A stretch of DNA of 26,017 nucleotides from Planctomycetota bacterium (lineage in GTDB: Bacteria; Planctomycetota; PUPC01; JACPCR01): positions 1-26,017 of the forward strand of contig JASLXP010000228.1 in assembly GCA_030740295.1 (NCBI GenBank), given 5' to 3'. This document shows, piece by piece, positions 7,574-21,253 of this stretch. How positions within the stretch are numbered: the stretch's first letter is position 1; each line of letters begins with the position of its first letter. The position numbers were made by a program, and so were the translations under genes. The notes under the pieces were generated by a model. It was not told the DNA's origin. It did no database searches and saw nothing but the letters and a program-made list of their open reading frames with translations.

Positions 7574-8974
7574 ATGCCTCTGAATCCGTCATTCATCGGA
7601 AAAGCCATTCCAAGTGCAGTCGCTGTGATGGCTGTGGTCAGCCTTTCTCTTTGGCTGGGCAACACTTCCGTCGCCAGTCTGGAGCGTCGAGTGCCCGGAA
7701 CGGACGAGGTTCCCAAGCCAGACGGTAATGCTGTTTCTGCGATCTCTCATGGCAAACTCGTGGTTGGCTCCGGCGTTCCTGCAAAACTTGCGGGGAGCTG
7801 GCCTTCCTTTCGTGGGGCTGACGGGTCGGGAGTTAGCCGTGAGACTGTCCCACTCCGCCGCGCCTGGCCCAACGATGGGCCCCCTTTGCTGTGGGAACTG
7901 GAGCTCGGCGAAGGACATGCCGGCGCAGCCGTTAACGATGGCCGGGTCTACATCCTCGATTACGACCGGGAGGCCCAGGCCGATGCCCTCCGCTGCCTGT
8001 CGTTCGAGACCGGTAAAGAAATCTGGCGTTTCAGTTATCCCGTTCGCACCAAACGTAATCACGGCATGTCCCGCACGGTCCCCGCGATTGCCGACGGGCT
8101 CGTGGTCTCACTCGGGCCGAAGTGTCATGTCGTTTGCCTCGATGCAAATTCCGGCGAGTTCCAGTGGGGCATCGACCTCGTGAAGGACTACGGTACCGAG
8201 ATTCCGCCCTGGTATGCGGGACAATGCCCATTGATCGAAGACGGCCGCGTCATACTGGCTCCCGGTGGCAAGGCTCTGATCATGGCCGTCGATAGTGCTA
8301 CCGGAGAAGTGCTCTGGGAAACACCCAATCCCCGCCGCTGGCAGATGACTCATTGCTCCATCGTGCCGATGACCTTTGCCGGAAAACGGATGTTCGTCTA
8401 CAGCGGCAGCGGAGGGGTGGCAGCAGTATCTGCCGAGGACGGCTCGCCGCTGTGGGAAACGGACGCCTGGAAGATCAGCATTGCTGCGATCGCAACACCG
8501 GTTGTGGTCGGAGATGGGCTCATATTCTTTTCCGGTGGTTACAACTCCGGCAGTATGTTGGTCCAACTGAGTGAAAAGAACGGCCAGATAGCCACCAAGC
8601 CGGTTTTTCGATTGAAGCCCGAAGTCTTCGGTGCAACGCAGCAGACGCCTGTCTTCTATGAAGGCCACATTTACTGCGTACGCCCGAATGGAGAGTTCGT
8701 CTGCCTGGACCTGCAGGGAAAGATAAAGTGGGCCAGCGGCCCGGAGCGACGGTTCGGTCTCGGCCCCTTCCTTATTGCGAATGACCTGGCCTTCGTCATG
8801 AACGACCACGGCCACATGACGCTGTTTGAGGCCACGCCGGCCGCCTGCCGCCAGCTCGCGGAAGCTCAGGTTCTAAATGGCCACGATGCCTGGGGCCCCT
8901 TCGCCCTGGCCGGCGGCCGCCTGCTCGCTCGCGATCTGACACGAATGGTCTGCCTGGACGTGCGTAATCCGTAA
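7574..8974 (+). CDS. Exported PQQ-binding-like beta-propeller protein
   Basis: A 466-residue protein with a hydrophobic N-terminal segment at about 12-33, a signal peptide or anchor that places the rest outside the cytoplasm. The propeller begins with WPSFRGADGSGVSRE, the W-P-x-F-R-G opening typical of PVC PQQ-like repeat proteins. Blade motifs follow: LSFETGKEIWRF, VDSATGEVLWETPNP, VSAEDGSPLWETD and FVCLDLQGKIKWAS. No cytochrome c motif was seen, and PQQ binding is not established for this family; many members resemble BamB-type scaffolds. It is the first gene of the redox cluster and has a membrane-anchored relative at 12631. The last codons and stop lie within a CGTAANN heptamer array. ATG start without a clear Shine-Dalgarno. 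Confidence 0.85.
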   Translation: MPLNPSFIGKAIPSAVAVMAVVSLSLWLGNTSVASLERRVPGTDEVPKPDGNAVSAISHGKLVVGSGVPAKLAGSWPSFRGADGSGVSRETVPLRRAWPNDGPPLLWELELGEGHAGAAVNDGRVYILDYDREAQADALRCLSFETGKEIWRFSYPVRTKRNHGMSRTVPAIADGLVVSLGPKCHVVCLDANSGEFQWGIDLVKDYGTEIPPWYAGQCPLIEDGRVILAPGGKALIMAVDSATGEVLWETPNPRRWQMTHCSIVPMTFAGKRMFVYSGSGGVAAVSAEDGSPLWETDAWKISIAAIATPVVVGDGLIFFSGGYNSGSMLVQLSEKNGQIATKPVFRLKPEVFGATQQTPVFYEGHIYCVRPNGEFVCLDLQGKIKWASGPERRFGLGPFLIANDLAFVMNDHGHMTLFEATPAACRQLAEAQVLNGHDAWGPFALAGGRLLARDLTRMVCLDVRNP

Positions 8975-9051
8975 CTCGTAACTCGTAACTCGTAATTCGT
9001 AATCCGAAACAGAGACCAAAGACCGTAGACGTTCCTTATTACTCATTACTT
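8963..9051. repeat. Heptamer tandem arrays over the stop codon of the propeller gene and downstream
   Basis: Six 7-base units run from 8963 to 9004: CGTAATC, CGTAACT three times, CGTAATT, CGTAATC. The gene's last codons CGT AAT CCG TAA lie inside the first two units. After a short break come AGAGACC, AAAGACC, GTAGACG (9011-9031), a unit type like that in the array at 11107, and then ATTACTC, ATTACTT (9038-9051). Confidence 0.8.
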
Positions 9052-9079
9052 AAGGCTGCCAGAAGACCGCAGCCAAAAC

Positions 9080-9128
9080 GTGGCATGGCCGTCTCGGCCG
9101 TGATTGACGGGCGTCCCGCCCGTACCAC
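9080..9128. repeat. Intergenic double hairpin element
   Basis: GTGG (9080-9083) and CCAC (9125-9128) enclose GGCC-GTCTC-GGCC (9087-9099) and the perfect hairpin ACGGGCG-TCC-CGCCCGT (9107-9123). The 14-mer at 9110-9123 recurs at 18373-18386, so this is a dispersed element. It lies between the first propeller gene and the small cysteine protein. Confidence 0.65.
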
Positions 9129-9174
9129 AAAAATCTCCGGGCCACGCGGAGAAGTGATAGCCCTAAACTTTATT

Positions 9175-9195
9175 ATTACTCATTACTCATTACGC
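9175..9195. repeat. Heptamer array abutting a start codon
   Basis: Three 7-base units, ATTACTC, ATTACTC and ATTACGC, end exactly at the ATG of the small cysteine protein (9196). The unit is the complement of the CGTAANN/GTAATGA class seen at 1-33 and 8963-9004. The array replaces the place where a ribosome binding site would be expected. Confidence 0.7.
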
Positions 9196-9429
9196 ATGAC
9201 CAGTGACCCCAACCTCCCATTTCGGAATCGACGAGACCTTCTCCGCTCCGCCATCCGGGGGCTGGTTCTCGCTGCACTGGCCGCCCTCGGCGGAATCCTG
9301 GGCATGAGAAGCAGGAGGCTTGGAACTGAGAAATGTATCAATCAGAGCATCTGCCGGGGATGCCCCGTTTACCGATCTTGCGGTCTGCCACTGGCGTCCG
9401 CTGAAAAACGAAAGCGAGGACAATCATGA
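9196..9429 (+). CDS. Small Tat-like cysteine protein (unknown family)
   Basis: A 77-residue protein. Residues 10-36 (RNRRDLLR, then IRGLVLAALAALGGILG) look like a twin-arginine signal or anchor: two arginines, a polar residue, two leucines, then a hydrophobic stretch. After it come four cysteines, C47, C53, C56 and C62 (CINQSICRGCPVYRSC, spacing CX5CX2CX5C), suited to one metal or [Fe-S] site. I do not recognise the family. The ATG at 9196 was preferred to the in-frame ATG at 9085 because the extra 37 residues would be encoded by hairpin and heptamer repeat DNA. Its stop overlaps the next start as ATGA (9426-9429), so the two are translationally coupled. Context suggests a small electron-transfer or metal-binding part of the same exported redox assembly. 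Confidence 0.7.
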   Translation: MTSDPNLPFRNRRDLLRSAIRGLVLAALAALGGILGMRSRRLGTEKCINQSICRGCPVYRSCGLPLASAEKRKRGQS

Positions 9430-10487
9430 GCACTGACCACAATTCAGAAATGAAACGAAGGAAATTCCTTCAGAACGGCGCCAAAGGCGCCGCCGTGGTA
9501 GGCCTCGGCGCGGCCGCGGGATTCGCCGTCAGCCGTCTCCCTGGCCGATCCAGGTCGCCCGAATCACAAGACCGAGAGAAGCTCGGCGACGAATTCACCT
9601 ACGACATTTCGAAATACCAGAAGACCGACCCTTCGCTGATCGCTTATCGGCAGGCAGGCCGCATCGAGACCGGCTTTAAGCTGCCTCGCGCCATCGCCAT
9701 CGGCCCGGAAGGCAAACTGTTCGTCGCCGGCGACCGTGGCGTTCGCTCTTTTGACAAAAACGGCAGAAGGCTCACTGAATTCAAGCCGAGCGGGCTACCC
9801 CTCTGCCTGAGCATCACATCCGACAGTGTTTATGTAGGTCTGAAATCGCACGTTGAGATTTACGATGCCGAAGGCGTCCTGAAGTCTGCCTGGGATCGCC
9901 TTGGCTCGGAAGCGGTTCTTAAGTCCATCGCTGTGGTGGAGGGTGCTGTCTTCGCCGCCGATGCAGGACGCCGCATCGTGGTGCGTTTCGATTCGGACGG
10001 AAAAGTCGTGCGTCACATTGGCAAGAAAGACCCGTCAAGAGACATCCCCGGCTTCGTCGTGCCCAGTCCCTACTTCTGTTTGCGGATTGCGCCGGACGGG
10101 CGGCTGCGGGTGGCCAATCCCGGCCGCCACCAGATCGAAACCTACACCTTCGATGGAGAGCTAGAGCATGCCTGGGGCAAGCCATCAATGGCCATCGACG
10201 GTTTCTGCGGATGCTGTAATCCGGTCAGTTTCGCCATGCAACCCGACGGCCAATACATCACCGCGGAGAAGGGTCTGACACGAGTGAAAACCTGCGATGC
10301 CGACGGTGTCTTCCAGAAAGTCGTTGCAGGCCCGGAGCATTTTCCTGACGCCACAAAAACCTGCGCGGCCGATGCCCTTACCGACTGCACTCGGGCCGGA
10401 CTCGACGTCGCCGTCGCCGAAGATGGCAGAGTGTTTGTCCTGGACATCATCGGCAGAGACATCCGCATCATGGAAAAGAAGGGCTGA
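9426..10487 (+). CDS. Tat-exported NHL-like beta-propeller protein with CGCC motif
   Basis: A 353-residue protein with a twin-arginine signal, R11-R12 in KRRKFLQNG, followed by the hydrophobic run AAVVGLGAAAGFAV. The mature part has propeller-type repeats with G-x-L/V-F/Y-V-A strands (IAIGPEGKLFVAGDRGV, FCLRIAPDGRLRVANPG, VAVAEDGRVFVLD), read as NHL or SMP-30-like blades. Residues 261-266 are CGCCNP, and more cysteines occur near residues 292, 315 and 324, so it may bind a metal or Fe-S cluster; Tat export fits folding with a cofactor inside the cell. GAGGA at 9417-9421 lies just before the ATG, which overlaps the preceding stop. It is followed 46 bases later by the Tat ferredoxin. The fold and export are well supported; the cofactor and role are inference. 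Confidence 0.8.
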   Translation: MSTDHNSEMKRRKFLQNGAKGAAVVGLGAAAGFAVSRLPGRSRSPESQDREKLGDEFTYDISKYQKTDPSLIAYRQAGRIETGFKLPRAIAIGPEGKLFVAGDRGVRSFDKNGRRLTEFKPSGLPLCLSITSDSVYVGLKSHVEIYDAEGVLKSAWDRLGSEAVLKSIAVVEGAVFAADAGRRIVVRFDSDGKVVRHIGKKDPSRDIPGFVVPSPYFCLRIAPDGRLRVANPGRHQIETYTFDGELEHAWGKPSMAIDGFCGCCNPVSFAMQPDGQYITAEKGLTRVKTCDADGVFQKVVAGPEHFPDATKTCAADALTDCTRAGLDVAVAEDGRVFVLDIIGRDIRIMEKKG

Positions 10488-10533
10488 CATAAGCCCTCAC
10501 TGTCTCCGTTCGATCCTCCCGATCTCCGTTCCC

Positions 10534-11103
10534 ATGCCCAACGAAAAGAAACCAGATCCAACCCGCCGTGAATTCGTCTCCAGCGGCGCACGCGGCCTCG
10601 GCCTGCTTACCCTCGGGAGCATGGGTGGCTACCTCTCCGGACGCAGCCAGGCAGAGGAGACGGTCTGGCAAATCGACGCGGAAAAATGTATCCGCTGCGG
10701 CAAATGCGCAACCGAGTGCGTACTGGAAGAATCTGCCGTGAAGTGCGTCCACAATTTCGATATGTGCGGCTACTGCAAGCTCTGTACTGGGTACTTCGAG
10801 CCCGAGCCAAACGCCCTCAACACCGGCGCAGAAAACCAGCTTTGCCCCACGGGCGCCATCAAACGGAAGTTCGTCGAGGACCCTTACTTTCAGTACAGCA
10901 TTGAAGAATCCTTATGCGTCGGCTGCGCGAAATGCATCGAGGGCTGCACCCGATTCGGCAACGGCTCTCTCTTTCTCCAGGTCCGTCACGACCGCTGCGT
11001 AAACTGTAATGACTGCTCCATCGCCCGCTCCTGCCCCTCCCAAGCCATCGAGCGCGTCCCCGCAGACCAGCCCTACAAACTGAAGGGCAAGGGGGAAGGA
11101 TGA
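10534..11103 (+). CDS. Tat-exported NapG-like polyferredoxin (up to four [4Fe-4S] clusters)
   Basis: A 189-residue periplasmic electron carrier. The Tat signal is R11-R12 in TRREFVSSGARG, then LGLLTLGSMGGYL. Cysteines are C52/55/58/62 (CIRCGKCATEC), C71/78/81/84 plus C104 (CPTGAI), C128/131/134/138 (CVGCAKCIEGC) and C155/158/161/167 (CVNCNDCSIARSC). This number and spacing fit four cubane clusters, as in NapG-type quinol dehydrogenase partners. The start at 10534 was chosen because it places the Tat motif near the N-terminus; the frame is open back to 10297, but that part overlaps the previous gene. The stop overlaps the next gene's ATG (11100-11103, ATGA), so it is coupled to the NapH/NosR-like membrane protein, the same pairing as NapG and NapH. 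Role inferred: electron transfer between the membrane partner and exported redox proteins. Confidence 0.87.
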   Translation: MPNEKKPDPTRREFVSSGARGLGLLTLGSMGGYLSGRSQAEETVWQIDAEKCIRCGKCATECVLEESAVKCVHNFDMCGYCKLCTGYFEPEPNALNTGAENQLCPTGAIKRKFVEDPYFQYSIEESLCVGCAKCIEGCTRFGNGSLFLQVRHDRCVNCNDCSIARSCPSQAIERVPADQPYKLKGKGEG

Positions 11104-12593
11104 AAGGCAGACCGCAGACGACAGATTTCAGATTACAGACCACAGACCACAGGCTACAGACTTCAGACTTCAGACAGACCAGAGACTACAGACCACAGAC
11201 GCCAGCACTCCACCACTCCAGCACTCCACCACTCCACCACTCCACCACCCCACCCATCAGGACAGCCCACCCATCCGTCCTCCTCCTCCTCTCGGCCCTC
11301 TTATTCGCCCCCTACGCCCACGCGGCCGAGCGTTTTCCTCCTCCAGACTTTGAATCCGGTTACTCGCTGCCGGAGACGACCACGCCGCCGCCTCGCATTG
11401 CGAATATGGCTGTCGTTGATGTCGTCGTGCTTCTGTTTACCCTCGGTCTGGCCTCTTATCTCGCGCTGAAGAGGCGGCGCCGGAACGAGATCCTTTACCT
11501 GTCCATGTTCTCGCTCGTCTATTTCGGGTTCTACCGCGAGGGGTGTGTGTGCGCGATTGGCTCGATTCAAAATGTGTCCCTGGCGATGTTCGATGGCCGG
11601 GCTGTTATCCCCCTTGGAGTCCTGGCTTTCTTTATTCTGCCTCTGGCATTCACGCTCTTTTTTGGCCGGACATTCTGCGCAGCCGCCTGCCCGCACGGCG
11701 CCCTTCAGGATTTGGTCCTCGTCAAACCCGTGAAGGTGCCCGCATGGCTCGAACAAGGGCTGCGGCTGGTGCCCTACGTGTACCTTGGCGGCGCCGTGCT
11801 GCTAGCCGCTACCGGCAGCGCGTTCATCATCTGCCAGTTCGATCCGTTCATTGGGCTTTTCCGCATGACCGGCACTCGCAACATGCTGCTGTTCGGCGGC
11901 GGATTTCTGATCGCGGGGATGTTCATCGGCCGGCCCTATTGCCGCTATTTGTGCCCCTACGGTGCCATCCTTGGCCTCCTGTCAAAGGTCTCGAAATGGC
12001 ACGTCGCCATCACGCCGGATGAGTGCATTCAGTGCCGGCTCTGCGAAGAATCGTGCCCTTTTGCCGCCATTCATCACCCGACCCCATCCGAAAGCGGCGA
12101 GGCCCGGCCAGTTGGGCGCGCCAGGCTTGGCCGTCTGCTCCTGCTGCTGCCGGTGTGCGTCATACTGGGTGGGTGGCTGGGCGCCCGGCTCAGCGGCCCC
12201 ATCTCGCTGCTGCACCCGCAGATCGATCTCGCCGAACAGGTCTTTCTCGCGGAGACAGGTCAGCTCAAGGAGACTGACGACGCGGTCAAAGCCTTCCGCC
12301 AGACCGGCCGCCCTTCGCAGGAGCTGTTCGATGAAGCCCTGCCGATGAAAGAAAGATATGTCACCTGGGGATGGTTCTTCGGTGCCTTTGTCGGCCTCGT
12401 CGCCGGGCTCAAGCTCATCCAACTCTCCCTCAAGCGGACCCGCACGGATTACGAAACCGACCGCGCCAACTGCGTGGCCTGTGCCCGCTGCTTCGAGTAT
12501 TGCCCGTACGAGCACGTCCGCCGGGGGGATATTGATTTTGTCCCGGTGGAGGCCCTCACCAAGGCAGCCTCGGAAAAAGAACCGGTCGCATGA
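11100..12593 (+). CDS. NapH/NosR/CcoG-type membrane polyferredoxin with repeat-expanded N-terminus
   Basis: A 497-residue membrane iron-sulfur protein. A signal-peptide-like core at 60-75 ends in A-H-A. Helices follow at about 105-122, 130-147, 168-188, 224-245, 262-277, 345-363 and 422-440. Motifs are C193-AAA-C197-P and C281-RYL-C285-P, the paired CX3CP of NosR/NapH, then C309/312/315/319 (CIQCRLCEESCP) and C458/461/464/468 (CVACARCFEYCP). C149 and C151 sit in a NosR-like REGCVCAIGSIQN stretch. The family passes electrons between the quinone pool and ferredoxin-like partners. Oddity: residues 3-52 are encoded by 7-bp and 8-bp tandem repeats placed between the ATGA-coupled start and the signal peptide. 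The next in-frame ATG (Met103, 11406) would remove the signal-like region, so 11100 is kept. Stop TGA at 12591-12593. Confidence 0.85.
   Translation: MKGRPQTTDFRLQTTDHRLQTSDFRQTRDYRPQTPALHHSSTPPLHHSTTPPIRTAHPSVLLLLSALLFAPYAHAAERFPPPDFESGYSLPETTTPPPRIANMAVVDVVVLLFTLGLASYLALKRRRRNEILYLSMFSLVYFGFYREGCVCAIGSIQNVSLAMFDGRAVIPLGVLAFFILPLAFTLFFGRTFCAAACPHGALQDLVLVKPVKVPAWLEQGLRLVPYVYLGGAVLLAATGSAFIICQFDPFIGLFRMTGTRNMLLFGGGFLIAGMFIGRPYCRYLCPYGAILGLLSKVSKWHVAITPDECIQCRLCEESCPFAAIHHPTPSESGEARPVGRARLGRLLLLLPVCVILGGWLGARLSGPISLLHPQIDLAEQVFLAETGQLKETDDAVKAFRQTGRPSQELFDEALPMKERYVTWGWFFGAFVGLVAGLKLIQLSLKRTRTDYETDRANCVACARCFEYCPYEHVRRGDIDFVPVEALTKAASEKEPVA
11107..11255. repeat. In-gene tandem arrays: 7-bp units then 8-bp units
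   Basis: From 11107 to 11176 there are ten 7-base units of the form RCAGAYY (GCAGACC, GCAGACG, ACAGATT, TCAGATT, ACAGACC and so on). Four more follow in shifted phase (11177-11204, GACCAGA to GACGCCA). Then 8-base units CACCACTC/CAGCACTC run from 11203 to about 11255. They are translated as a low-complexity stretch, with 7-residue period in the first part (QTTDFRL, QTTDHRL, QTSDFRQ) and His/Pro/Thr/Ser in the second. Confidence 0.85.
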
Positions 12594-12634
12594 CGGAGGA
12601 GCAAATGCCTGTAGCACTCAACCAACCCACATGA
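12590..12634 (+). CDS. Possible 14-codon coupling ORF between two cluster genes
   Basis: An ATG at 12590 overlaps the TGA of the membrane polyferredoxin as ATGA, reads MTEEQMPVALNQPT and ends in a TGA at 12632-12634 that overlaps the next gene's ATG (12631), again as ATGA. A strong GGAGGA (12595-12600) precedes an internal ATG at 12605 in the same frame. The peptide itself is unlikely to matter; the arrangement could carry ribosomes from one gene to the next by two stop-start steps. It may equally be chance. Confidence 0.25.
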   Translation: MTEEQMPVALNQPT

Positions 12635-14328
12635 ACTTCAGCACTGCAAAACACCTCGCCGTGATCTCGGGAGTCTTCGCGCTCGTCGTGGCCATGCTCC
12701 TCCTTGCCAACGACACGGGCAGCGCGGTTCTCGTCGAGAGTGACGAGCTCCGCGCTCTCAAGGCAGAACTGGCCAAGGTGCCCGGCGACGAAGACCTCAA
12801 AGAAAAGATCAGAACGCTCGACCTGCAACTCCGGCAGGACTTCTTCGAGCGGCACGCCTTTTCATCGACCGGCGCGTGGCTCCTGCTTGGGGGGGGCGTC
12901 GTTCTGTTGGTGGCACTCAGGTCAGCCAGCGCCAGCCGTGAGCAGCCCCCGAAGCCGGGTCCGCGTACCGACGAGGCCGGTGAGATGGCTGAGGTGGCCT
13001 CCTGGTCCCGTTGGTCCGTTGCTGCCATCGCCTCGGTGCTTGGAGGCGCGGCCTTTGGCCTCATGTCCCGTCCCGGACCTGCGCTGACCCCGGATGCACT
13101 GGCCGCAGCGCGGCAGACCAATTCAGTGGCGGCCGTCGTGCCGACCTGGCCCTCAGCAGAAGAGCTCCAGAAGAACTGGCACCGCTTTCGCGGCCCCGGT
13201 GGCCTCGGACGTTCGGCATTTGCCAACGTGCCCAGGCAGTGGAACGGAAAAGCCGGAAAGGGCATTCGGTGGAAGACCGAAGTGCCGCTGCCCGGCCACA
13301 GTTCGCCCATCTTCTGGAAAGATCGCGTCTTTCTGACCGGCGCAGATAAGGGCCGGCGAGAAGTCTTCTGCTTTGATGCCGACACCGGTTCCCTGCTCTG
13401 GCGGAAGCCCGTAATGACCATCGCCAGCAGCCAGGCCAAGCCGCCGGAAATCATGGAAGACACCGGTTACGCTGCCTCGACTCCCGTGACGGACGGGAAG
13501 CGGGTGGCAGCCATTTTTGCTAATGGCGACATCGCTGCCTTCGATCTCGATGGTCAGCGCGTCTGGATCCATAACCTCGGACTTCCTGACAACCCGTACG
13601 GCTACTCTTCGTCTCTTGCGCTCTGGCACGACAAGGTCATCGTCCAATACGATCAGAACAAGAAGACCCCTTCGAGACTCCTCGCTCTGGACTTTGCCAC
13701 AGGAGACACGGCCTGGGAGACGCCGAACGAGTTCGGCGCCACCTGGTCATCTCCAACGGTCATCTCGACCGGCAAAGGGGACCAGATCATCACAACATCA
13801 GCTCCCTGGGTTGTCGGCTATGCCGCGGAAACCGGCAAGGAGATCTGGCGAGCCAAATGCCTCGATGGTGACGTTGCTCCATCCCCGGTCTATTCCAACG
13901 GCCTGGTTTTTGTCACCAACGCCTACGCTCAGTTGGCTGCCATCCGGCCTGACGGCCAGGGCGACGTGACTGAAACCCACATCGCCTGGACCGCGGACGA
14001 GGGCCTGCCCGACACCTGCAGCCCCCTCTGCGCGGGCAAATGGCTCTACCTGCTCGAGCCAGGCCTCCTCTACTGCTTTGACGCGGCAGCCGGCACCAAA
14101 GTGTGGGAACAGGACATAACTGGAAACTTCACGGCCTCGCCGTCACTGGCCGGGGACCGCATCTACATGCTCAACAACGAAGGCGAGATGATCCAGATCA
14201 AGACCGGTGACAAATACGAAGAAATCGGCCGCGCCAGCCTCGGTGAGGCCTGCCATGCCACCCCGGCCTTTGCCGACGGACGCATCTACATCCGGGGCGT
14301 GAAACATCTTTATTGTATTGGAGAGTGA
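12631..14328 (+). CDS. Membrane-anchored PQQ-like beta-propeller protein
   Basis: A 565-residue protein with three predicted helices at about 7-26, 79-97 and 127-145. A charged helical segment (36-75, rich in Glu, Lys and Leu) lies between the first two and may form a coiled coil. With the N-terminus inside, three crossings put the C-terminal propeller (about 183-565) outside. The propeller opens with NWHRFRGPGGLGRS, close to WPSFRGADGSG in the gene at 7574, and has blades such as VFCFDADTGSLLWRKPV, LALDFATGDTAWETP and YCFDAAAGTKVWEQDIT. No haem motif. PQQ binding is unproven. ATG at 12631 chosen: an upstream extension to 12358 would read through the previous gene in another frame. 37 bases separate it from the NuoEF fusion. 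It could dock the soluble diaphorase or the Tat proteins at the membrane (inference). Confidence 0.83.
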   Translation: MNFSTAKHLAVISGVFALVVAMLLLANDTGSAVLVESDELRALKAELAKVPGDEDLKEKIRTLDLQLRQDFFERHAFSSTGAWLLLGGGVVLLVALRSASASREQPPKPGPRTDEAGEMAEVASWSRWSVAAIASVLGGAAFGLMSRPGPALTPDALAAARQTNSVAAVVPTWPSAEELQKNWHRFRGPGGLGRSAFANVPRQWNGKAGKGIRWKTEVPLPGHSSPIFWKDRVFLTGADKGRREVFCFDADTGSLLWRKPVMTIASSQAKPPEIMEDTGYAASTPVTDGKRVAAIFANGDIAAFDLDGQRVWIHNLGLPDNPYGYSSSLALWHDKVIVQYDQNKKTPSRLLALDFATGDTAWETPNEFGATWSSPTVISTGKGDQIITTSAPWVVGYAAETGKEIWRAKCLDGDVAPSPVYSNGLVFVTNAYAQLAAIRPDGQGDVTETHIAWTADEGLPDTCSPLCAGKWLYLLEPGLLYCFDAAAGTKVWEQDITGNFTASPSLAGDRIYMLNNEGEMIQIKTGDKYEEIGRASLGEACHATPAFADGRIYIRGVKHLYCIGE

Positions 14329-14365
14329 ATAAGCCGGGCTGATTCCGCCCTGTTCTCTGTAACCC

Positions 14366-16711
14366 ATGCCAGAGCTTGACCTCACATTTGTCGAACAGAC
14401 TGTTTCCGAGCGCGGGCCGCGCCCGGAACAGGTGATCCCCATCCTGCAGGATATCCAGCGGCATTACCGATTCCTGCCGGACGAGGCCCTGCAGCGGCTG
14501 TGCGAGGTGAGCGAAATCACGCCGGCCGCGGTCGAAGGGGTTTCGACCTTCTATGCACAGTTCCGGCGCCGACCGATAGGGCGCCATCTCATCAAGGTCT
14601 GCAACGGTACCGCCTGCCATGTGAAAGGTGCACCAGCGATCAGCGACGCGTTCAGAACCAGGCTCCAGATCCCTGACACGGATGACACCGATCCGGATGG
14701 CGAATACACGATCGAAGATGCTTTCTGCCTGGGCTGTTGCACCTTGGCGCCCGCAGTGCAGATCGACGATGTCACTTACGGGCACGTCACCCAGGACCGG
14801 GTGTCCAAAGTTTTGCGGAACTTTGCCGAGCATGAGAAGCAACCGGCTTCCGCGGCCCCGGCAAACACCAGCAACGGCAAGTCCGACGGCGAAATCCGCA
14901 TCTGCCTCGATTCCTGCTGCGTGGCCAGAGGATGCGGCAGCACTCACGAGGCCATCTACCGGTCCATTCTCGAAACCGGGGTCCAGGCAGACATCAAACG
15001 CGTCGCGTGCCCGGTCATCTGCGAAGAGACACCCCTGGTGGAAATCGCTCTCCCGGACAGGAAACCGGTCTTGTATCCCGGAGTTCATGAAAGTGACGTG
15101 AAAGAGATCGTCCTCGGGCATTTTCGTCCCAGGGGCATCATCAACAGGTTCCGCAGCTTGATGTCCGGCGCCCTCGACCAACTGCTCACCGATGAAGTCT
15201 GGGAACCGGTAGCGCGTTACTCCTCCGATGTCCGCGATCCGCCGGTAGCTGCTTTCTTCGGGCCGCAGAAACACATCGCCACCGAGCATTACGGCCGCAT
15301 CGATCCGCTCTCCCTGGACGATTACATTGAGCACGATGGCTTCAAAGCGCTGGGGAAATGTCTCGACACCCTCTCGCCGGAGGAGGTCGTTTCGATTGTG
15401 GAGCAAAGTGGGCTGCGGGGACGCGGCGGGGCCGGCTTTCCGACCGGCAGAAAGTGGAAGATGATGCAAGCGGCCGAGGGCAAACGCCGTTTCGTCATCT
15501 GCAACGGGGACGAAGGCGACCCCGGCGCGTTCATGGATCGGATGCTGATGGAATCGTTCCCCTATCGAGTGATCGAGGGCCTGGCCATCGCGGCTTACGC
15601 GGCCGGCGCCCACGAAGGGAAGCTCTACATCCGGGCCGAGTACCCTTTTGCCGTCGAGCGTGTCAAGGAAGCCCTGCAGCGATGCGAAGAGCACGGCATC
15701 CTCGGCGAGAAGGTCCTCGGCAGAGATTTCTCGCTGGAGCTTGAAGTATTCGAGGGCGCTGGCGCTTTCGTTTGCGGCGAAGAAACCGCCATGCTCGAAT
15801 CCATCGAAGGCCGGCGCGGCATCCCAAGGCTCCGCCCGCCTTACCCGATCGAGCAGGGGCTCTGGGATTGCCCAACCCTCATCAATAACGTCGAGACCCT
15901 GGCAGTCATCCCATGGATTCTGCGCGAGGGGGCCGAAGCATTCTCTTCGCTGGGTACGGAATCAAGCAGGGGCACAAAAGTGTTTGCACTGGCTGGCAAG
16001 GTGACCCGCGGCGGTCTCATCGAAGTGCCCATGGGCATCACCATCCAGGAGATCGTGGATGAGATCGGCGGAGGCGTTCCCGATGGCGGGCAGCTCAAAG
16101 CCGTACTCATCGGCGGCCCTTCCGGCGGATGCGTGCCCGCGGAACTGGCGCAGACACCCATCGATTACGATTCGCTGCGCCAGGTAGGCGCCATCATGGG
16201 ATCCGGCGGATTAGTCGTGCTGGACGAAACCGACTGCATGGTCAGCATCGCGCGCTACTTCCTCAGCTTCTGCCAATACGAATCGTGCGGCAAGTGCACC
16301 TATTGCCGCATCGGCACGCGGCGTATGCTGGACATTATGGATCGCCTCTGCAATGGCAAGGGACGTAAGGGCGACATCGAAGACCTCGAAAGCCTCGCCG
16401 GCCTGGTAAAGGCGGGCAGCCTCTGCGGCCTGGGCAAGACCGCGCCCAACCCGATCGTCACGACTCTGAAATTCTTCCGCGAGGAATACGAAGCGCATCT
16501 CGCGGGCCGATGCCCGGCAGGCAAATGTGAAGCACTGGTCACCTATTCCGTCCGAGACAACTGCATCGGATGCACCCTCTGCGCGCAGCATTGCCCGGTG
16601 GATGCCATCCCCATGACCCCCTACCAGAAACACGAGATCGATACCGAAACCTGTACCCACTGCGACACCTGCCGCCAAGTATGCACGGAGGACGCGATTC
16701 ATGTGGAGTAA
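14366..16711 (+). CDS. NuoE-NuoF fusion (NADH-oxidising diaphorase subunit, HydC/HydB-like)
   Basis: A 781-residue flavo-iron-sulfur protein. Residues 1-155 are NuoE-like, with [2Fe-2S] ligands C79, C84, C121 and C125. Residues about 176-250 are a second thioredoxin-like [2Fe-2S] domain (C180, C184/185, C190, C215, C219), as at the N-terminus of HydB/HndC proteins. Residues about 315-690 are NuoF: FMN/NADH loop GLRGRGGAGFPTGRKW (349-364), CNGDEGDPGAFMDR (379-392), GAGAFVCGEET, an SLBB part near 540-620, and the N3 cluster C641/644/647/687. The C-terminus adds two [4Fe-4S] ferredoxin sites, C733/736/739/743 and C763/766/769/773. It oxidises or reduces NAD(H) with FMN. In known complexes the NuoE and HydB/NuoF parts are usually separate genes. 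The next gene starts 2 bases after its stop. No hydrogenase or formate dehydrogenase catalytic gene accompanies it in the window. Confidence 0.92.
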   Translation: MPELDLTFVEQTVSERGPRPEQVIPILQDIQRHYRFLPDEALQRLCEVSEITPAAVEGVSTFYAQFRRRPIGRHLIKVCNGTACHVKGAPAISDAFRTRLQIPDTDDTDPDGEYTIEDAFCLGCCTLAPAVQIDDVTYGHVTQDRVSKVLRNFAEHEKQPASAAPANTSNGKSDGEIRICLDSCCVARGCGSTHEAIYRSILETGVQADIKRVACPVICEETPLVEIALPDRKPVLYPGVHESDVKEIVLGHFRPRGIINRFRSLMSGALDQLLTDEVWEPVARYSSDVRDPPVAAFFGPQKHIATEHYGRIDPLSLDDYIEHDGFKALGKCLDTLSPEEVVSIVEQSGLRGRGGAGFPTGRKWKMMQAAEGKRRFVICNGDEGDPGAFMDRMLMESFPYRVIEGLAIAAYAAGAHEGKLYIRAEYPFAVERVKEALQRCEEHGILGEKVLGRDFSLELEVFEGAGAFVCGEETAMLESIEGRRGIPRLRPPYPIEQGLWDCPTLINNVETLAVIPWILREGAEAFSSLGTESSRGTKVFALAGKVTRGGLIEVPMGITIQEIVDEIGGGVPDGGQLKAVLIGGPSGGCVPAELAQTPIDYDSLRQVGAIMGSGGLVVLDETDCMVSIARYFLSFCQYESCGKCTYCRIGTRRMLDIMDRLCNGKGRKGDIEDLESLAGLVKAGSLCGLGKTAPNPIVTTLKFFREEYEAHLAGRCPAGKCEALVTYSVRDNCIGCTLCAQHCPVDAIPMTPYQKHEIDTETCTHCDTCRQVCTEDAIHVE

Positions 16712-16713
16712 CC

Positions 16714-18279
16714 ATGCCTGACATCACCATCGACCACCAGACGATCACCGCGCGAGACGGTGACACCGTTCTCGAAGCTGCCGCGGGGGCCGGACTGGAT
16801 ATTCCCACCCTCTGCTATTTCGAAGGAAACGAGCCCTGCCCCTCCTGCATGGCCTGCGCGGTCAAGGACGCGGGCAAGGATATCTTCATCCCTTCGTGCG
16901 CGGTGAAGGCCGAAGACGGCATGAAATTGGAATGCGAGACGGACGAAGTGCACGAGTTTCGAAAGACCGCCATCGAACTGCTGTTCAGCGATCACCTCGG
17001 CGATTGCATCTCGCCCTGCCAGCGCATCTGCCCGGCACACCTCGAAATTCCATTGACTATGAAACTCGTTGGAGCGGGAAAACTGCGCGAGGCCATCGTG
17101 GCCGTGAAGCGCAGTGTCGCCCTGCCGGCCGTGCTTGGGCGCACATGCCACCGGCCTTGCGAATCCGGCTGCCGCCGCGGGACCCACGATGACGCGGTTT
17201 CCATCTGCTCGCTCATTCGCCACGTGGCCGATGAAGACCTGGCCTCCGGCCACGGCTACCTCCCGCCGTGCGGGCCGCCTAGAAACAAGAGCATCGCCAT
17301 CGTCGGCGCCGGCCCTGCCGGGCTCTCCGCCGCTTACTACCTGCTGCAGGAAGGCTACGCCTGCACCCTTTACGAGCAGTCCGACAGGCCCGGCGGAACG
17401 CTGAAGGAACTCGTGAAAAAAGGCGAGCTTCCGGAAGACGTCGTTGCCTCCGAGATCGGGCTCATTGAGAAACTTGGCGCGAATCTTCGTTTCGGAATTC
17501 GGGTGGGCTCTGATGTCTCTCTGGAAACGTTGCAGCAGGAGCACGACGCAGTGCTGCTGTCCATCGGTAAGGTCGAAGATTCTGATATCGAAGCGTTCGG
17601 CCTGAAAGTCACTCGCGCCGGCATCCAGGTCGGCCGGGAGAGCTATGAAACAGAGCTCGAAGGCGTCTTCGCCGCCGGGCACGCCGTGCGGAAGACAGGC
17701 AAAGTCGTTCACTCCGTAGCGGACGGCAAGACCGTGGCGGCAGCCATCCATCAGCACCTGAGCGGCTTCCCCATCGTTGGCCAGGCCAAATCCTTTACCT
17801 GCCAGGTAGGCAAGCTCCAGGAAGGTGAGATGCCCGAATTCATGAAGGAGATCAGCGAGGCAGAACGCACCTCGCCCGCGGCAGGCCAGGAGACCGGCTT
17901 CAGTTTCGAGGAGGCCGTTAAGGAAACCGAACGCTGCGTCCAATGCGACTGCCGGGCGATTGATACCTGCAAACTGCGTGGCCTTGCCATCCGATACGGA
18001 GCATCGCCAACACGCTTCGATGGGGACCGGCCCGCCTTCCGTAAACAGGTCGAACACCCATTCATTGTTTACGAGCCTGGCAAATGCATCCGCTGTGGCA
18101 ATTGCGTGCGCATTGCCGAGGCCTCCCGCGAATCCCTCGGCCTGACTTTCGTTGGCCGCGGCTTCGATGTGCAGCTCGGAGTCCCTTTCAACGGCACCTT
18201 GCGCGAGGGTTTAAAGAAGGTGGCCGCAGAATGCGTCGCCGCCTGTCCCGTGGGCGCGCTGGCCTTAAAAGACGAGTGA
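16714..18279 (+). CDS. [2Fe-2S]/FAD/[4Fe-4S] oxidoreductase subunit (HydA/NuoG N-terminus plus GltD-like core lacking the NAD(P)H subdomain)
   Basis: A 521-residue electron-transfer protein. Residues 1-80 are a NuoG/HydA-type [2Fe-2S] domain with ligands C34-X10-C45-X2-C48-X13-C62. Residues 90-175 are the GltD-type double-cluster domain (C98, C102, C106; C145, C149, C153). FAD binding follows, with G198-A-G-P-A-G203 and the closing motif FAAGH (319-323). Only about 35 residues lie between DAVLLSIGK and FAAGH, so the GltD subdomain that binds NAD(P)H (normally with a second GxGxxG) appears deleted. The tail has C408/411/413/419 and an incomplete ferredoxin pair, C458/461/464 (CIRCGNCVRIA) and C507/C511. 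ATG 16714 follows GGAG (16705-16708) with 5-base spacing; the frame is open further upstream inside the NuoEF gene. It is probably the partner of NuoEF, with electrons routed internally rather than taken from NAD(P)H here. Confidence 0.87.
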   Translation: MPDITIDHQTITARDGDTVLEAAAGAGLDIPTLCYFEGNEPCPSCMACAVKDAGKDIFIPSCAVKAEDGMKLECETDEVHEFRKTAIELLFSDHLGDCISPCQRICPAHLEIPLTMKLVGAGKLREAIVAVKRSVALPAVLGRTCHRPCESGCRRGTHDDAVSICSLIRHVADEDLASGHGYLPPCGPPRNKSIAIVGAGPAGLSAAYYLLQEGYACTLYEQSDRPGGTLKELVKKGELPEDVVASEIGLIEKLGANLRFGIRVGSDVSLETLQQEHDAVLLSIGKVEDSDIEAFGLKVTRAGIQVGRESYETELEGVFAAGHAVRKTGKVVHSVADGKTVAAAIHQHLSGFPIVGQAKSFTCQVGKLQEGEMPEFMKEISEAERTSPAAGQETGFSFEEAVKETERCVQCDCRAIDTCKLRGLAIRYGASPTRFDGDRPAFRKQVEHPFIVYEPGKCIRCGNCVRIAEASRESLGLTFVGRGFDVQLGVPFNGTLREGLKKVAAECVAACPVGALALKDE

Positions 18280-18303
18280 GGATCAGGCATCGATTCGTTC
18301 CTT

Positions 18304-18333
18304 CTCTTCGTCTTTCCCATCGTTTTAATCTTC
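18304..18333 (+). repeat. CT-rich dispersed repeat, copy 3
   Basis: CTCTTCGTCTTTC (18304-18316) is identical to 1861-1873, and the continuation CCATCGTTTTAATCTT matches the complement of the sequence at 5928-5957 with few differences. It lies between the FAD/Fe-S gene and the MttB-family gene. Confidence 0.6.
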
Positions 18334-18372
18334 AGCCTGAAGTGGCGCTGCCGGATATCCCCATCGTAGGAT

Positions 18373-18417
18373 GGCGTCCCGCCCGTCCCCGAGGCCGGCA
18401 AGATGCCGGCCGGGACG
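18373..18417. repeat. Intergenic GC hairpin element, related to 9080-9128
   Basis: GGCCGGCA-AGA-TGCCGGCC (18393-18411) is a perfect 8-bp stem. CGTCCCG (18375-18381) pairs with CGGGACG (18411-18417) outside it. The 14-mer at 18373-18386 is identical to 9110-9123. It lies about 70 bases before the MttB-family gene and could attenuate readthrough from the redox cluster. Confidence 0.65.
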
Positions 18418-18486
18418 GCCAACCCACGAGGACGCTGAGCAGGACGATACCGGGGTAAACCTTTCAACCGTAGAAGAACCACACCA

Positions 18487-19890
18487 ATGCCGGAGCAGAA
18501 CAAACAGACAACCGCGGAACAGATACACGAAGCATCGTTGTCGCTGTTGCAGGAACCCGGAGTCCGCGTCGAGCACGAAGAGATCCTTGGCCTGCTGAAA
18601 TCCAACGGAGCCAATCCGGGATCGGGCAGCCAGGATGTGCGTCTGCCTCGTGAAATGGTCGAGGAGTTTCTGGGGCAGGCGCCGGAGGAAGTGGTCCTCA
18701 CCAATCGCTTTGGAGAGGAGACGATCCTGAGCAGCCGGTCAGAGCCGGTATTCTGGTCCGTGCCTGGGATGGGCTTCTGTCACCGTGGGGAGCACCGGGC
18801 CTTCGCCTCCGATGACATGGCGGCCATGGCCAGGCTGCTGGATCAATTACCAAACGTGCAGACCGTTTTCGGAATGTCCCTCGACGACATCCCACCTCCG
18901 GCTCGGGATGTCGTGGGGCTGCGGATCATGGCGGAGAACACCTCGAAGCACATCCGGGTGCTCTGCTTCGCCCCTCAGAGCATGGAGGTGATGCTCGAAA
19001 TGAAAAGTGTGATCGGTGAGCACCCGTGGTTCAGTGTTGGTTTCACGGCGCACGGTCCCCTGCGGTGGACGAATCTGGCGCTGGAGGTTTTTCGCCTGAC
19101 GGCCGGCCGTGGCATCCCAGCCACAGTCAATGGTGAACCCATGGCCGGGACCTCCGCGCCTGTAACCCTTGAAGGGACAGCAGCAGTGGGTAACGCCGAA
19201 ATCCTGGCGGGCATCGTCATCAACCAGATTCTGGAGCCCGGGCGGCCGTGTATCTACAACTTCGGGCTGGCGCACACGTTCGACATGAAAACCGCCATTG
19301 CAGTGACAGGCGGGCCGGAGAACGCTCTCTTCGCCCAAATCTCCGCCATGATGGGACGTTTCTATTGCCTGCCTTCCTGTTCCTGGGTATCGACCGAAGC
19401 CATGTGCCCCGATTCGCAGGCCGCGCTGGAAAAGATGTTCGGCTTTCAGACTCATGTCCAGAGCGGCGTGAGCTGCATCTGGGGAGTCGGGCAGTTGGAG
19501 TCCGAGTTGACCATTTCCCCGGGCCAGGCGGTCATTGACAACGAAATGATCGAATACGCAAAACGCTATCATCGCGGCATCGAAGTATCGGAAGAGAAGC
19601 TTGCCCTCGATGTTACTCGCTCGGTGGGCATCGCGGGTTCTTTTCTCGATCACGAACACACTTTGACACACTTCAGAGACGAACTCTTCGAGCCATCACT
19701 GCTGTTCCGTAAACGGCGATCGGACTGGAACGCCGAAGGCATGAAACGCCTCGACGAACGCGCTGAGGAGATCGCCGACGATCTCATGGCCCGTCCAGTC
19801 GATAACGGCCTCAGCGATGAACAGCGCATCGAGCTGGGAAGGCTTGCCTCGAAACGTCTCCGAGAGGTAAGCATTCCTAAGATGCTCTGA
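18487..19890 (+). CDS. MttB superfamily methyltransferase (non-pyrrolysine, MtgB-like)
   Basis: A 467-residue protein of the trimethylamine methyltransferase superfamily. Features are the N-terminal helical part (AEQIHEASLSLLQEPGVRVEHEE), the barrel entry FWSVPGMGFC, the central VNGEPMAGTSAPVTLEGT and the C-terminal SGVSCIWGVGQLESE, then DEQRIELGRLASKRL. It is read end to end without an in-frame amber codon, so it is a non-pyrrolysine member, as are glycine betaine and related demethylases. Members transfer a methyl group from a quaternary or tertiary amine to a corrinoid protein; the substrate here is unknown, and neither a corrinoid protein nor a RamA-type activator is in the window. ATG at 18487 without a clear Shine-Dalgarno. 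It follows the redox cluster after a 207-bp repeat-bearing gap and is 28 bases from the next URO-D gene, a likely pair. Confidence 0.88.
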   Translation: MPEQNKQTTAEQIHEASLSLLQEPGVRVEHEEILGLLKSNGANPGSGSQDVRLPREMVEEFLGQAPEEVVLTNRFGEETILSSRSEPVFWSVPGMGFCHRGEHRAFASDDMAAMARLLDQLPNVQTVFGMSLDDIPPPARDVVGLRIMAENTSKHIRVLCFAPQSMEVMLEMKSVIGEHPWFSVGFTAHGPLRWTNLALEVFRLTAGRGIPATVNGEPMAGTSAPVTLEGTAAVGNAEILAGIVINQILEPGRPCIYNFGLAHTFDMKTAIAVTGGPENALFAQISAMMGRFYCLPSCSWVSTEAMCPDSQAALEKMFGFQTHVQSGVSCIWGVGQLESELTISPGQAVIDNEMIEYAKRYHRGIEVSEEKLALDVTRSVGIAGSFLDHEHTLTHFRDELFEPSLLFRKRRSDWNAEGMKRLDERAEEIADDLMARPVDNGLSDEQRIELGRLASKRLREVSIPKML

Positions 19891-19918
19891 ATTCTTTTAC
19901 CCCGGACTTTCACGAACA

Positions 19919-20878
19919 ATGACACCTGAAGAAAACTACTACCGTGCCGTCGAGTTTCGCAGCCCCGAAGTCATTCCCTGCCGGGTAAGCCTTTTGCCGG
20001 CAACATGGGGAAAACACCGGGAGGCACTGGAGGAGCTCGTTGGCCGGCATCCGGACATCTTCGGCGCACACACACCAAACGAGGAGAGGAATTTCGAAGA
20101 CTACCGCGGCACCTATGCGGTAGGCGAGCACGTGGACAACTGGGGATGCGTCTGGAAAAACATCAGAGGCGGGATGGATGCCCTTGTCACCGAATTCCCA
20201 CTCGATGATTGGGCCAGATTCGAGGACTACGAGCCGCCGACCTCCGGGGGAATGCCGCACGGCTTCATGTACATGCGGCTCTATTACCTGCGGGGCTTCG
20301 AGAGTTTCATGCGCGACCTGGCCGAAGAACCGCCACAGCTCCAGCAGCTCGTGGACATGGTCCTGGAGTACAACATGAACGAACTTGAAGAACGGTTGTC
20401 AGGTGATGCGCGCATCCATTACTTTGGCGACGACCTGGGCATGCAGGATCGGCTTCCCATGAGCCCGGCGCACTGGCGAAAGTATCTGAAGCCCTGCTTC
20501 GGCCGAATTTTTGGCAGGTGCCGGGAGAGCGGCGCATACGTCTATCTCCACACAGACGGGCACATCCTGCCGATCATCCCAGACCTCATCGATTGCGGGG
20601 TGACGGTCCTCAACCCGCAATTCCGATCCAACACTCTGGAGGGCCTCATCGAAACCTGCAAAGGAAAAGTCGCGGTCGACCTCGACCTCGACCGCCAGAT
20701 GTTTCCCTTCTGCACTCCCGACGATATCGATGAACATGTACACGAAGCCGTAGCCGGGCTCGGTTCTCCGGAAGGCGGCCTCATGCTGCTGGCCGAGTGC
20801 GCGCCAGATGTGCCGCTCGAAATCATCGAGGCCATCTGCCAGGCCTTTGAGAAATACCGGTTCTTCTATTCCGGTTAG
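19919..20878 (+). CDS. URO-D family protein paired with the MttB-family gene
   Basis: A 319-residue soluble protein, shorter than the other two URO-D relatives here. It starts MTPEENYYRAVEFRSPEVIP, a divergent form of the family opening. The barrel carries YLHTDGHILPIIPDLI near residue 205, matching the HSDG-type metal site of the gene at 6298, then VTVLNPQFRSN and GKVAVDLDLDRQMFPF, the last strands. The likely role by family and position is a methyl transfer step linked to the MttB protein encoded 28 bases upstream, moving the methyl group on to a thiol or folate; decarboxylation is less likely. A catalytic cysteine could not be assigned with confidence. ATG start at 19919; no Shine-Dalgarno seen. 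Confidence 0.8.
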   Translation: MTPEENYYRAVEFRSPEVIPCRVSLLPATWGKHREALEELVGRHPDIFGAHTPNEERNFEDYRGTYAVGEHVDNWGCVWKNIRGGMDALVTEFPLDDWARFEDYEPPTSGGMPHGFMYMRLYYLRGFESFMRDLAEEPPQLQQLVDMVLEYNMNELEERLSGDARIHYFGDDLGMQDRLPMSPAHWRKYLKPCFGRIFGRCRESGAYVYLHTDGHILPIIPDLIDCGVTVLNPQFRSNTLEGLIETCKGKVAVDLDLDRQMFPFCTPDDIDEHVHEAVAGLGSPEGGLMLLAECAPDVPLEIIEAICQAFEKYRFFYSG

Positions 20879-21253
20879 ACCCTCTCCGCAGCGCGGAGAT
20901 AATTACCACGGATGGCAAAGCCATCCCACGGATGAAGACAGAATAAGAACTTTTTCATCCGTGGTATTTCTATAGTAGCTGCGGTTGCGGCCGAAGGCAG
21001 CCTTAAGTCAGGATTCCCTCGAGTCAGCGAAGTAGGAGTCCATTTCCTTATAAAGACTTTTTCATCCGTGGTATTTCTATCGTAGCTGCGGTTGCGGCCG
21101 AAGGCAGGGAAGCAACCCAACTTCATGGCAAAAACCGGCCCGTATCGTCTAATACTGCGCGCAGTGGCGGTAACCACAGGTATTCGAGGCCGGCCCCGGG
21201 ATCTGGGCTCTGGAGAGTCCAGCAATCAAGAATCTCACAGATCGCAAAACACC
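20879..21253. other. 375-bp repeat-rich intergenic region
   Basis: No gene seen. It holds a 52-bp direct repeat (see 20949-21107) and an upstream inverted motif CCACGGATGG/CCACGGATGAA (20906-20936) complementary to the TTCATCCGTGG core of those repeats. The reading frame of the giant fusion gene is open through part of this region (from 21092), but that stretch is mostly repeat-derived and lacks a signal-peptide-like start. A promoter for the fusion gene is expected here; none was clear. Confidence 0.6.
20949..21107. repeat. 52-bp direct repeat, two copies
   Basis: Positions 20949-21000 and 21056-21107 are identical except for one base (A to C in the CTATAGTAG/CTATCGTAG step), separated by 55 bases. 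Each copy contains ACTTTTTCATCCGTGG and then GTAGCTGCGGTTGCGG. The second part resembles the hairpin arm at 6208-6227. The CATCCGTGG core also pairs with CCACGG sequences at 20906 and 20926. Confidence 0.85.

Follow-up and report, generated by a model that had tools for sequence, protein, structure and literature searches.

A conserved bacterial gene cluster combining a predicted Bfu-type core with NapH-like, exported iron–sulfur and propeller proteins

Eight consecutive plus-strand genes on contig JASLXP010000228.1 of a Planctomycetota bacterium (GCA_030740295.1) raise the question of how an NAD(H)-handling enzyme inside the cell might be connected to a chain of exported proteins, and which way electrons would pass between them. 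The whole stretch of DNA analysed, here called the window, is 26,017 bases long, and the eight genes that a sequence-only reading had placed at 7574-18279 are all present at exactly those coordinates. In order, they encode a propeller related to pyrroloquinoline quinone (PQQ) proteins (PQQ1), a 77-residue cysteine protein (Cys77), an NHL propeller, an iron–sulfur (Fe–S) polyferredoxin with a Tat-like (twin-arginine translocation) signal (FeSTat), a NapH/NosR-like membrane protein, a second PQQ-like propeller (PQQ2), a NuoE–NuoF fusion (NuoEF) and a subunit with flavin adenine dinucleotide (FAD) and Fe–S domains. They are a genuine and widely conserved unit, beyond chance: their order recurs elsewhere and their cysteines are kept. 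Our leading interpretation, to which we give roughly an even chance, is that a Bfu-type core inside the cell is joined through the NapH-like protein to the exported Fe–S and propeller chain, with electrons flowing, most likely, outward.

Conservation of the gene set

At E ≤0.001, 1,436 of the 7,996 candidates scored are relatives of the NHL protein. Genome contigs were scanned with an NHL alignment (340 relatives; best 80 loci retained, with flanks of at most 10 kb), and gene order was counted only where the sequence extends 8.5 kb or more downstream of the NHL gene, as it does in 44 of these 80 loci. The FeSTat, NapH-like, PQQ2, NuoEF and FAD genes follow the NHL gene in this order and on the same strand in 32 of the 44. 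Among the other 12, six lack a match to the FAD subunit only, one of them (L002, from Poribacteria) being a stretch that ends inside NuoEF and so cannot be judged; five end after PQQ2 and one (L030) after the NapH-like gene. Of the 63 loci with enough flank, 45 have PQQ1 no more than 2.5 kb upstream of the NHL gene. In a separate draw of 196 Planctomycetota genomes the NHL protein occurs in 19. Sequence reached 8.5 kb or more downstream in 12 of the 17 sample loci with an NHL match (L088 and L091, which are flanks, have none); the full order is present in all 12, and PQQ1 lies upstream in 14 of 15 with enough flank. A Verrucomicrobiota draw gave the NHL protein in 20 of 194 genomes. Co-occurrence of the eight genes in relatives, on which the sequence-only reading had staked its claim, is what these counts (32/44 and 12/12 loci) give.

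The full set occurs under the titles Planctomycetota and Verrucomicrobiota, and also in some loci whose title says just 'bacterium'; the Poribacteria locus carries it as far as NuoEF, an Omnitrophota locus (L026) as far as PQQ2, and a Latescibacterota contig (L008) breaks off after showing no more than PQQ1 and two NHL genes. One genome, G020, holds a second full set besides its main locus (L044), in the permuted order PQQ1-FeS-NapH-PQQ2-NuoEF-FAD-NHL-Cys77 (L103, G020:C46:1-16000). Nine genomes have a main locus with no FAD gene or a contig that stops short of it; all nine carry the gene elsewhere, the best match being 44-48% identical (in G032, as pieces at contig ends). The permuted set and the displaced FAD genes together indicate that gene content is more constant than gene order. 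Nine genes beside or inside the unusual loci L001, L002, L008, L029 and L030 include no common terminal enzyme. At L001 the NHL gene has no cluster after it on its contig, and L008 and L097 carry tandem NHL copies; these NHL genes may have a role apart from the core.

The cysteine counts given below come from alignments of one best open reading frame per locus, some extended upstream, from which rows shorter than 75% of the window protein were dropped (Cys77 and the NAD(P)-region length comparison excepted).

The cytoplasmic core

The sequence-only reading described an NADH module, a diaphorase, joined to a NapGH-like exported chain. A cytoplasmic NAD(H) unit beside such a chain is indeed present; it is not an undefined diaphorase, however, but a core of the Bfu/Stn type. 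The best PDB matches of NuoEF are NfnABC/StnABC/HydB-type chains. Its BfuC part matches PF01257 (7.3e-45, residues 11-153), and PF01512, PF10589 and Fer4 families score above cutoff, with SLBB at 22.3 bits (cutoff 27); we take these families to be the Pfam counterparts of the InterPro domains of BfuB (NuoF FMN domain, SLBB, NADH_4Fe-4S and 4Fe-4S ferredoxin). The NuoE-type [2Fe-2S] cysteines C79, C84, C121 and C125 are present in 44 of 45 rows, the remaining row having a gap, and those of the C1, B1, CPAxxC and B3/B4 motifs in 44-45 of 45. The CPAxxC motif and eight tail cysteines align with 9bov_B, 9n5u_B and 8oh5_B and are kept in all 45 rows. NuoEF thus carries the motifs of the extra clusters B2-B5 that distinguish bifurcating members from complex I-type homologues, the cysteines of the B5 domain all being present in the window protein; which cysteines bind which of these clusters is in part our presumption.

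Sequence and fold together give NuoEF the architecture of a Bfu core, with an NAD(H)/FMN site and a ferredoxin-type 2x[4Fe-4S] tail, and its motifs identify it as a fused BfuC-BfuB of the electron-bifurcating Bfu/HydBC/Stn family. A plain complex I fragment is ruled out, since both the tail clusters and the A subunit have their counterparts in Stn/Nfn/Hyd enzymes. Electron bifurcation among NAD(H), ferredoxin and a third substrate is predicted for this core.

The adjoining FAD subunit points to what that third substrate is not. It contains Fer2_4, Fer4_20 and Fer4_Nqo3 domains, which supply the 4Fe-4S and 2Fe-2S ferredoxin domains of a BfuA, and it has the FAD-binding GltD-type domain with flanking Fe–S clusters that marks Stn/Nfn-Bfu enzymes. 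Its NAD(P) region, however, measures about 25 residues against 171. The NADPH-binding domain is absent from the window protein and from 31 of 37 locus copies and present in five, with L046 not judged; the five form one clade in a tree that left out L046 and sequences shorter than 390 residues. All 120 database matches listed are 517-561 residues long, too short for an NADPH domain. The position equivalent to StnC R239 is Arg in all five long forms versus one of the 31 short forms. Its domains make the protein an A subunit of the Stn/NfnABC type from which the NAD(P)H-binding domain is missing, and a Stn transhydrogenase proper is ruled out by that absence. A 98% identical FAD subunit in the database is labelled as from a Planctomycetota bacterium. 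Some FAD subunits of about 520 residues are named NADPH-dependent glutamate synthase-like by their sources, a name that misleads, since their length excludes an NADPH domain.

Articles cited here by PMC number are cited for parts of their text. Like the cluster, Stn/NfnABC (Nfn-Bfu; PDB 8oh5, 9bov, 9n5u) has a NuoE-type subunit, a HydB-type NuoF with an Fe–S tail, and an A subunit with an N-terminal [2Fe-2S] domain, a GltD-type Fe–S and FAD domain and a NuoG-type Fe–S tail. The cluster differs from it in that the A subunit lacks both the NAD(P)H and the FdhF-like C-terminal domains, NuoE and NuoF are fused, and there are membrane and exported partners. With the Bfu family at large (Schut et al. 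2022, PMC9304861) it shares the conserved BfuBC core and an A subunit that links to the third partner; here that partner would be of the NapH-like and exported kind, which is not among the types in the consulted parts of PMC9304861, and NapH and the periplasm go unmentioned in its main text. Mbh-Bfu and Nuo-Bfu (PMC9304861) also have a Bfu core attached to a membrane complex, but those use the membrane subunits of an energy-converting hydrogenase or of complex I, in place of a single NapH-like protein and an exported chain.

Membrane and exported proteins

The NapH-like protein carries two CxxxCP motifs, two four-cysteine motifs, a C149-x-C151 pair and C245, kept in 68-71 of 71 rows. At 58.9 bits against TIGR02163 (napH_; cutoff 213) it is, judged by this score, NapH-like and not NapH, and the polyferredoxin likewise falls short of the NapG model NF007012 (21.8 bits, cutoff 269). 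The predicted orientation of the NapH-like protein in the membrane is read from its sequence, not from a computed topology. Among plasmid records it has 170 matches, all below 60% identity, and 13 of the 20 listed are annotated NosR/NirI. Known NapGH/NosR/NapH-like systems (PMC8238504) resemble the cluster in having a NapH-like protein with two CxxxCP and two [4Fe-4S] motifs beside a Tat-type polyferredoxin. They differ in that the donor here would be a Bfu core, the NapG and NapH models stay below cutoff, and the 15 window proteins covered by the Pfam scans include neither an FMN_bind domain nor a molybdopterin oxidoreductase (NapA). The claim that no known terminal enzyme of the hydrogenase, formate dehydrogenase, Rnf or nitrate kind is present held for the same 15 proteins scanned with Pfam.

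The exported proteins have conserved cysteines. Each of the 17 cysteines of the polyferredoxin is present in at least 73 of 76 rows (window included), and its twin-arginine (RR) motif in all 76. Cys77 has relatives in 63 of the 80 loci, with its four cysteines in 63-64 of 64 rows and an RR motif in 62; it matches no Pfam or NCBIfam family. In the NHL protein, C263 and C264 are invariant in 81 of 81 rows (window included). Its only Pfam match is a below-cutoff one to a Rieske-type Tat signal, and its AlphaFold2 model (predicted local distance difference test score 81.7) has the TRIM2 NHL domain as best PDB match. PQQ1 and PQQ2 reach 38.5 and 30.8 bits against TIGR03075 (cutoff 480), far from qualifying as PQQ-dependent dehydrogenases. 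None of the eight proteins contains a CxxCH haem motif.

Pfam backs every assignment of the eight except those of Cys77, which has no family, and the NHL protein (Table 1). The DNA bears out overlaps and a very short gap of the kind noted in the sequence-only reading: genes overlap by 4 bp at 9426-9429 and at 11100-11103 and are 2 bp apart at 16712-16713. The start of the NapH-like gene, however, is doubtful. Low-complexity repeats with units near taactcg, gaccacaga and ccactccac occupy 8975-9195 and 11110-11260, between genes and inside the apparent NapH-like N-terminus, whose first ~50 residues are translated repeat; the true start is therefore probably farther downstream.

Table 1. Genes of the cluster and its immediate neighbours in the window
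Feature	Position	Strand	Match or basis
PQQ1: exported PQQ/BamB-like β-propeller, first gene of the conserved set	7574..8974	+	Pfam PQQ_2 3.5e-28
Cys77: small 77-aa protein, RR (Tat-like) motif, one hydrophobic stretch, four conserved Cys	9196..9429	+	
NHL propeller, GFCGCCNP motif, candidate terminal redox protein	9426..10487	+	
FeSTat: polyferredoxin, Tat-like signal, 17 conserved Cys (about four [4Fe-4S])	10534..11103	+	Fer4 families
NapH/NosR-like membrane Fe–S protein without FMN_bind domain	11100..12593	+	TIGR02163
PQQ2: membrane-anchored PQQ-like propeller, two N-terminal hydrophobic stretches	12631..14328	+	Pfam PQQ_2 1.8e-34
NuoEF: predicted fused BfuC-BfuB, electron-bifurcating-type core	14366..16711	+	PDB matches, motif Cys
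FAD/Fe–S subunit: predicted Stn/NfnA-type A subunit without NAD(P)H and FdhF-like domains	16714..18279	+	
MttB-type methyltransferase; lineage-specific neighbour, outside the conserved set	18487..19890	+	Pfam MTTB 1.5e-66
URO-D-family protein; downstream lineage-specific neighbour	19919..20878	+	Pfam URO-D 1.9e-10
URO-D-family protein; upstream lineage-specific neighbour	6298..7353	+	Pfam URO-D 6.4e-13

Two further genes of the window lie outside these groups. A multihaem cytochrome at 2317-4416 (minus strand), which has four CxxCH motifs, a weak match of the cytochrome c554 type and five hydrophobic stretches, is divergently oriented and separate from the cluster. At 21092-25768 (plus strand) a 1558-residue protein combines ThuA, F5/8-type C, GDSL lipase and DUF7133 domains with a C-terminal plastocyanin-like copper domain.

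Direction of electron flow and alternative functions

As a unit the cluster is well supported; the path and direction proposed here for its electrons are predictions. Because the NADPH site is gone, and the NapH-like protein and the polyferredoxin are the constant neighbours best suited to accept electrons, these two are probably the third partner of the Bfu core. The steps that follow, and their outward direction, we infer from the homology, the missing domain and the co-occurrence described above. NADH and reduced ferredoxin would be confurcated at BfuBC and their electrons passed to the FAD subunit, which could exchange them with the cytoplasmic Fe–S domains of the NapH-like protein. The latter would move them across the membrane to the polyferredoxin and Cys77, and these in turn to the NHL propeller, the best candidate for a terminal redox site. 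Outward flow of this kind would supply the periplasm with low-potential electrons, to be used in a reduction close to the cell envelope.

Carriers of the cluster in Planctomycetota have the look of anaerobes. [FeFe]-hydrogenase is found in 12 of 19 carriers versus 14 of 177 non-carriers (Fisher p 6e-8), and COX1 is absent from 10 of 19 versus 19 of 177 (p 4e-5). These tests ignore kinship and the incompleteness of metagenome-assembled genomes, and absences are read from lists of positives. The association is strong in Planctomycetota and is not repeated in Verrucomicrobiota.

Several observations weigh against the reading of a Bfu core driving electrons outward. In Verrucomicrobiota, COX1 is absent from 14 of 20 carriers versus 109 of 174 non-carriers (p 0.63), and [FeFe]-hydrogenase is present in 16 of 20 versus 96 of 174 (p 0.054). 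Within the core, the N-terminal [2Fe-2S] (B5) domain has Ser at C184 in 9 of 45 rows and Ser or Thr at C219 in 10 of 45, and the R239 position is still Arg in 5 of the 45 rows of alignment A2, so that this change is not strict. Five loci (L004, L005, L006, L011 and L051) carry FeSTat-NapH-PQQ2 with neither core nor FAD gene, their genomes offering only generic GltD-type matches to the FAD subunit, and L030 has just FeSTat-NapH after its NHL gene; the five loci suggest that the membrane and exported half is a separable module, perhaps fed by quinol. Gene linkage is the sole reason for supposing that the FAD subunit touches the NapH-like protein. A structure search with the NHL protein returned NHL, Pizza, virginiamycin lyase and G-beta scaffolds, with no redox enzyme or cofactor among the 50 matches listed. 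Its RR motif is present in 45 of 81 rows and missing in 36; the copies without it, many from Phycisphaerae, look as if exported by Sec or with an anchor, and insertion of a cofactor ahead of export is to that extent less well supported.

The same proteins could work in reverse. A periplasmic donor would then be oxidised by the exported propellers and its electrons carried through the polyferredoxin and the NapH-like protein to the Bfu core, to be split between NAD+ and ferredoxin in a true bifurcation. Bfu enzymes are proposed to be reversible, and the characterised members oxidise their third substrate (PMC9304861); NapH-like proteins cluster with an alcohol oxidase in 172 genomes (PMC8238504), which makes inward flow possible and tells against the outward direction; and PQQ-like propellers recall dehydrogenases. 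The propellers nonetheless score far under the dehydrogenase model, and in our judgement a periplasmic donor with a potential low enough for ferredoxin is hard to name, so that we regard inward flow as rather unlikely. A different third partner, quinone at the NapH-like protein, would make the set a small NADH/ferredoxin:quinone module that supplies the periplasm as well, by a logic like that of Nuo-Bfu. PMC8238504 describes NapH as a subunit that putatively binds quinone, PMC9304861 proposes that Nuo-Bfu, which includes a clade 39 found in Planctomycetes and Nitrospirae, works with quinone, and the FeSTat-NapH-PQQ2-only loci require another donor, plausibly quinol. We still think this unlikely, given that the set has no proton-pumping subunit and that, to our mind, quinone alone would not need a 17-cysteine polyferredoxin, a four-cysteine Tat-type protein and propellers.

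Two further proposals come from neighbouring genes. In 16 of the 80 loci, every one with a planctomycete title, a GT4 glycosyltransferase gene stands upstream of PQQ1, usually accompanied by a third propeller, a LolD-like ATPase and a MacB-like permease; GT4 and the third propeller also stand beside the displaced FAD gene in five of the eight stretches L103-L110, and in a Poribacteria genome (G037) GT4 is about 2.4 kb from NuoEF. It occurs in 33 of 35 carrier genomes (from 85 known carriers) versus 3 of 21 non-carriers (Fisher p 1e-9), the latter being a small set hand-picked from early list rows among the 351 non-carriers of both samples, with kinship uncorrected. This co-occurrence is an unexpected envelope clue. 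The electrons might serve biosynthesis, not catabolism, in a reductive step on an envelope glycan or lipoprotein, together with GT4 and the LolD/MacB-type ABC transporter. Yet GT4 scores above no NCBIfam cutoff, its weak likeness being to exopolysaccharide, MshA and BshA enzymes (5,929 relatives among 7,999 scored), and no copy lies within the window; we hold the envelope proposal to be quite improbable. The third PQQ-like propeller with GT4, often beside the LolD-like ATPase and a MacB/FtsX permease of ~1100 residues, can be seen at L010:1513-4153, L056:5026-8352 and L105-L109.

The sequence-only reading favoured the other neighbours, MttB and URO-D, supposing that the module might be a sink or a source of electrons for corrinoid-dependent demethylation. 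That link proved weak. MttB is in none of the 80 loci; it is present in 17 of 40 cluster genomes, the other 23 (drafts) showing none, and in 13 of the 14 genomes where its place could be compared, mostly drafts, it lies either on a different contig from the cluster or at a distance of about 60 kb or more. The exception is G001, the closest relative found, whose MttB, 68% identical to that of the window, lies about 7 kb downstream and whose URO-D genes flank the cluster, one of them on the PQQ1 strand, about 1.4 kb upstream of that gene. MttB and URO-D are thus a lineage-specific neighbourhood common only to the window and this relative. The enrichment of MttB among Planctomycetota carriers (8 of 19 versus 10 of 177, Fisher p 4e-5) is uncorrected for kinship and for anaerobic lifestyle, which also tracks the cluster there, and cytoplasmic demethylation explains none of the exported chain. 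Corrinoid service as a general function is ruled out on distribution, and we consider any such link very improbable. G001 (a planctomycete, the genome of L003) has 39 URO-D-family matches, and six of these are no more than about 15 kb from the cluster. In the window, a 356-residue protein at 4749-5819 (minus strand) has no Pfam match and aligns weakly with the URO-D protein at 6298-7353, also at its very start; it is perhaps a divergent member of the family.

Returning to outward flow from a Bfu core, the known parts are that core, a Stn-type A subunit and a NapGH-like chain; apparently new are an A subunit from which the NAD(P)H domain is missing and the union of the core with an exported Fe–S chain and propellers. 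Neither is described in the consulted parts of PMC9304861, PMC11406978, PMC8238504 and PMC10482914, and a search of titles and abstract openings, with subscription journals and preprints outside its scope, found no description of the cluster. In its most complete form, which we regard as doubtful, the proposal is of a membrane-spanning Bfu complex in Planctomycetota, Verrucomicrobiota and probably Poribacteria. It would send confurcated electrons through a cytochrome-free, all-Fe–S periplasmic chain to a new redox class of NHL propellers with a CGCC site, serving an envelope glycan made with the co-occurring GT4.

If outward flow is correct, a Bfu-type enzyme would have its third partner beyond the membrane, reached by a simple change: an A subunit that lost its NAD(P)H domain and became tied to a NapH-like protein. 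The NHL protein with its CGCC motif and the 77-residue cysteine protein would be candidates for a new family of periplasmic redox proteins, with the glycosyltransferase as an unexpected partner, and in bacteria known mainly from metagenomes the cluster would let low-potential electrons reach the periplasm.

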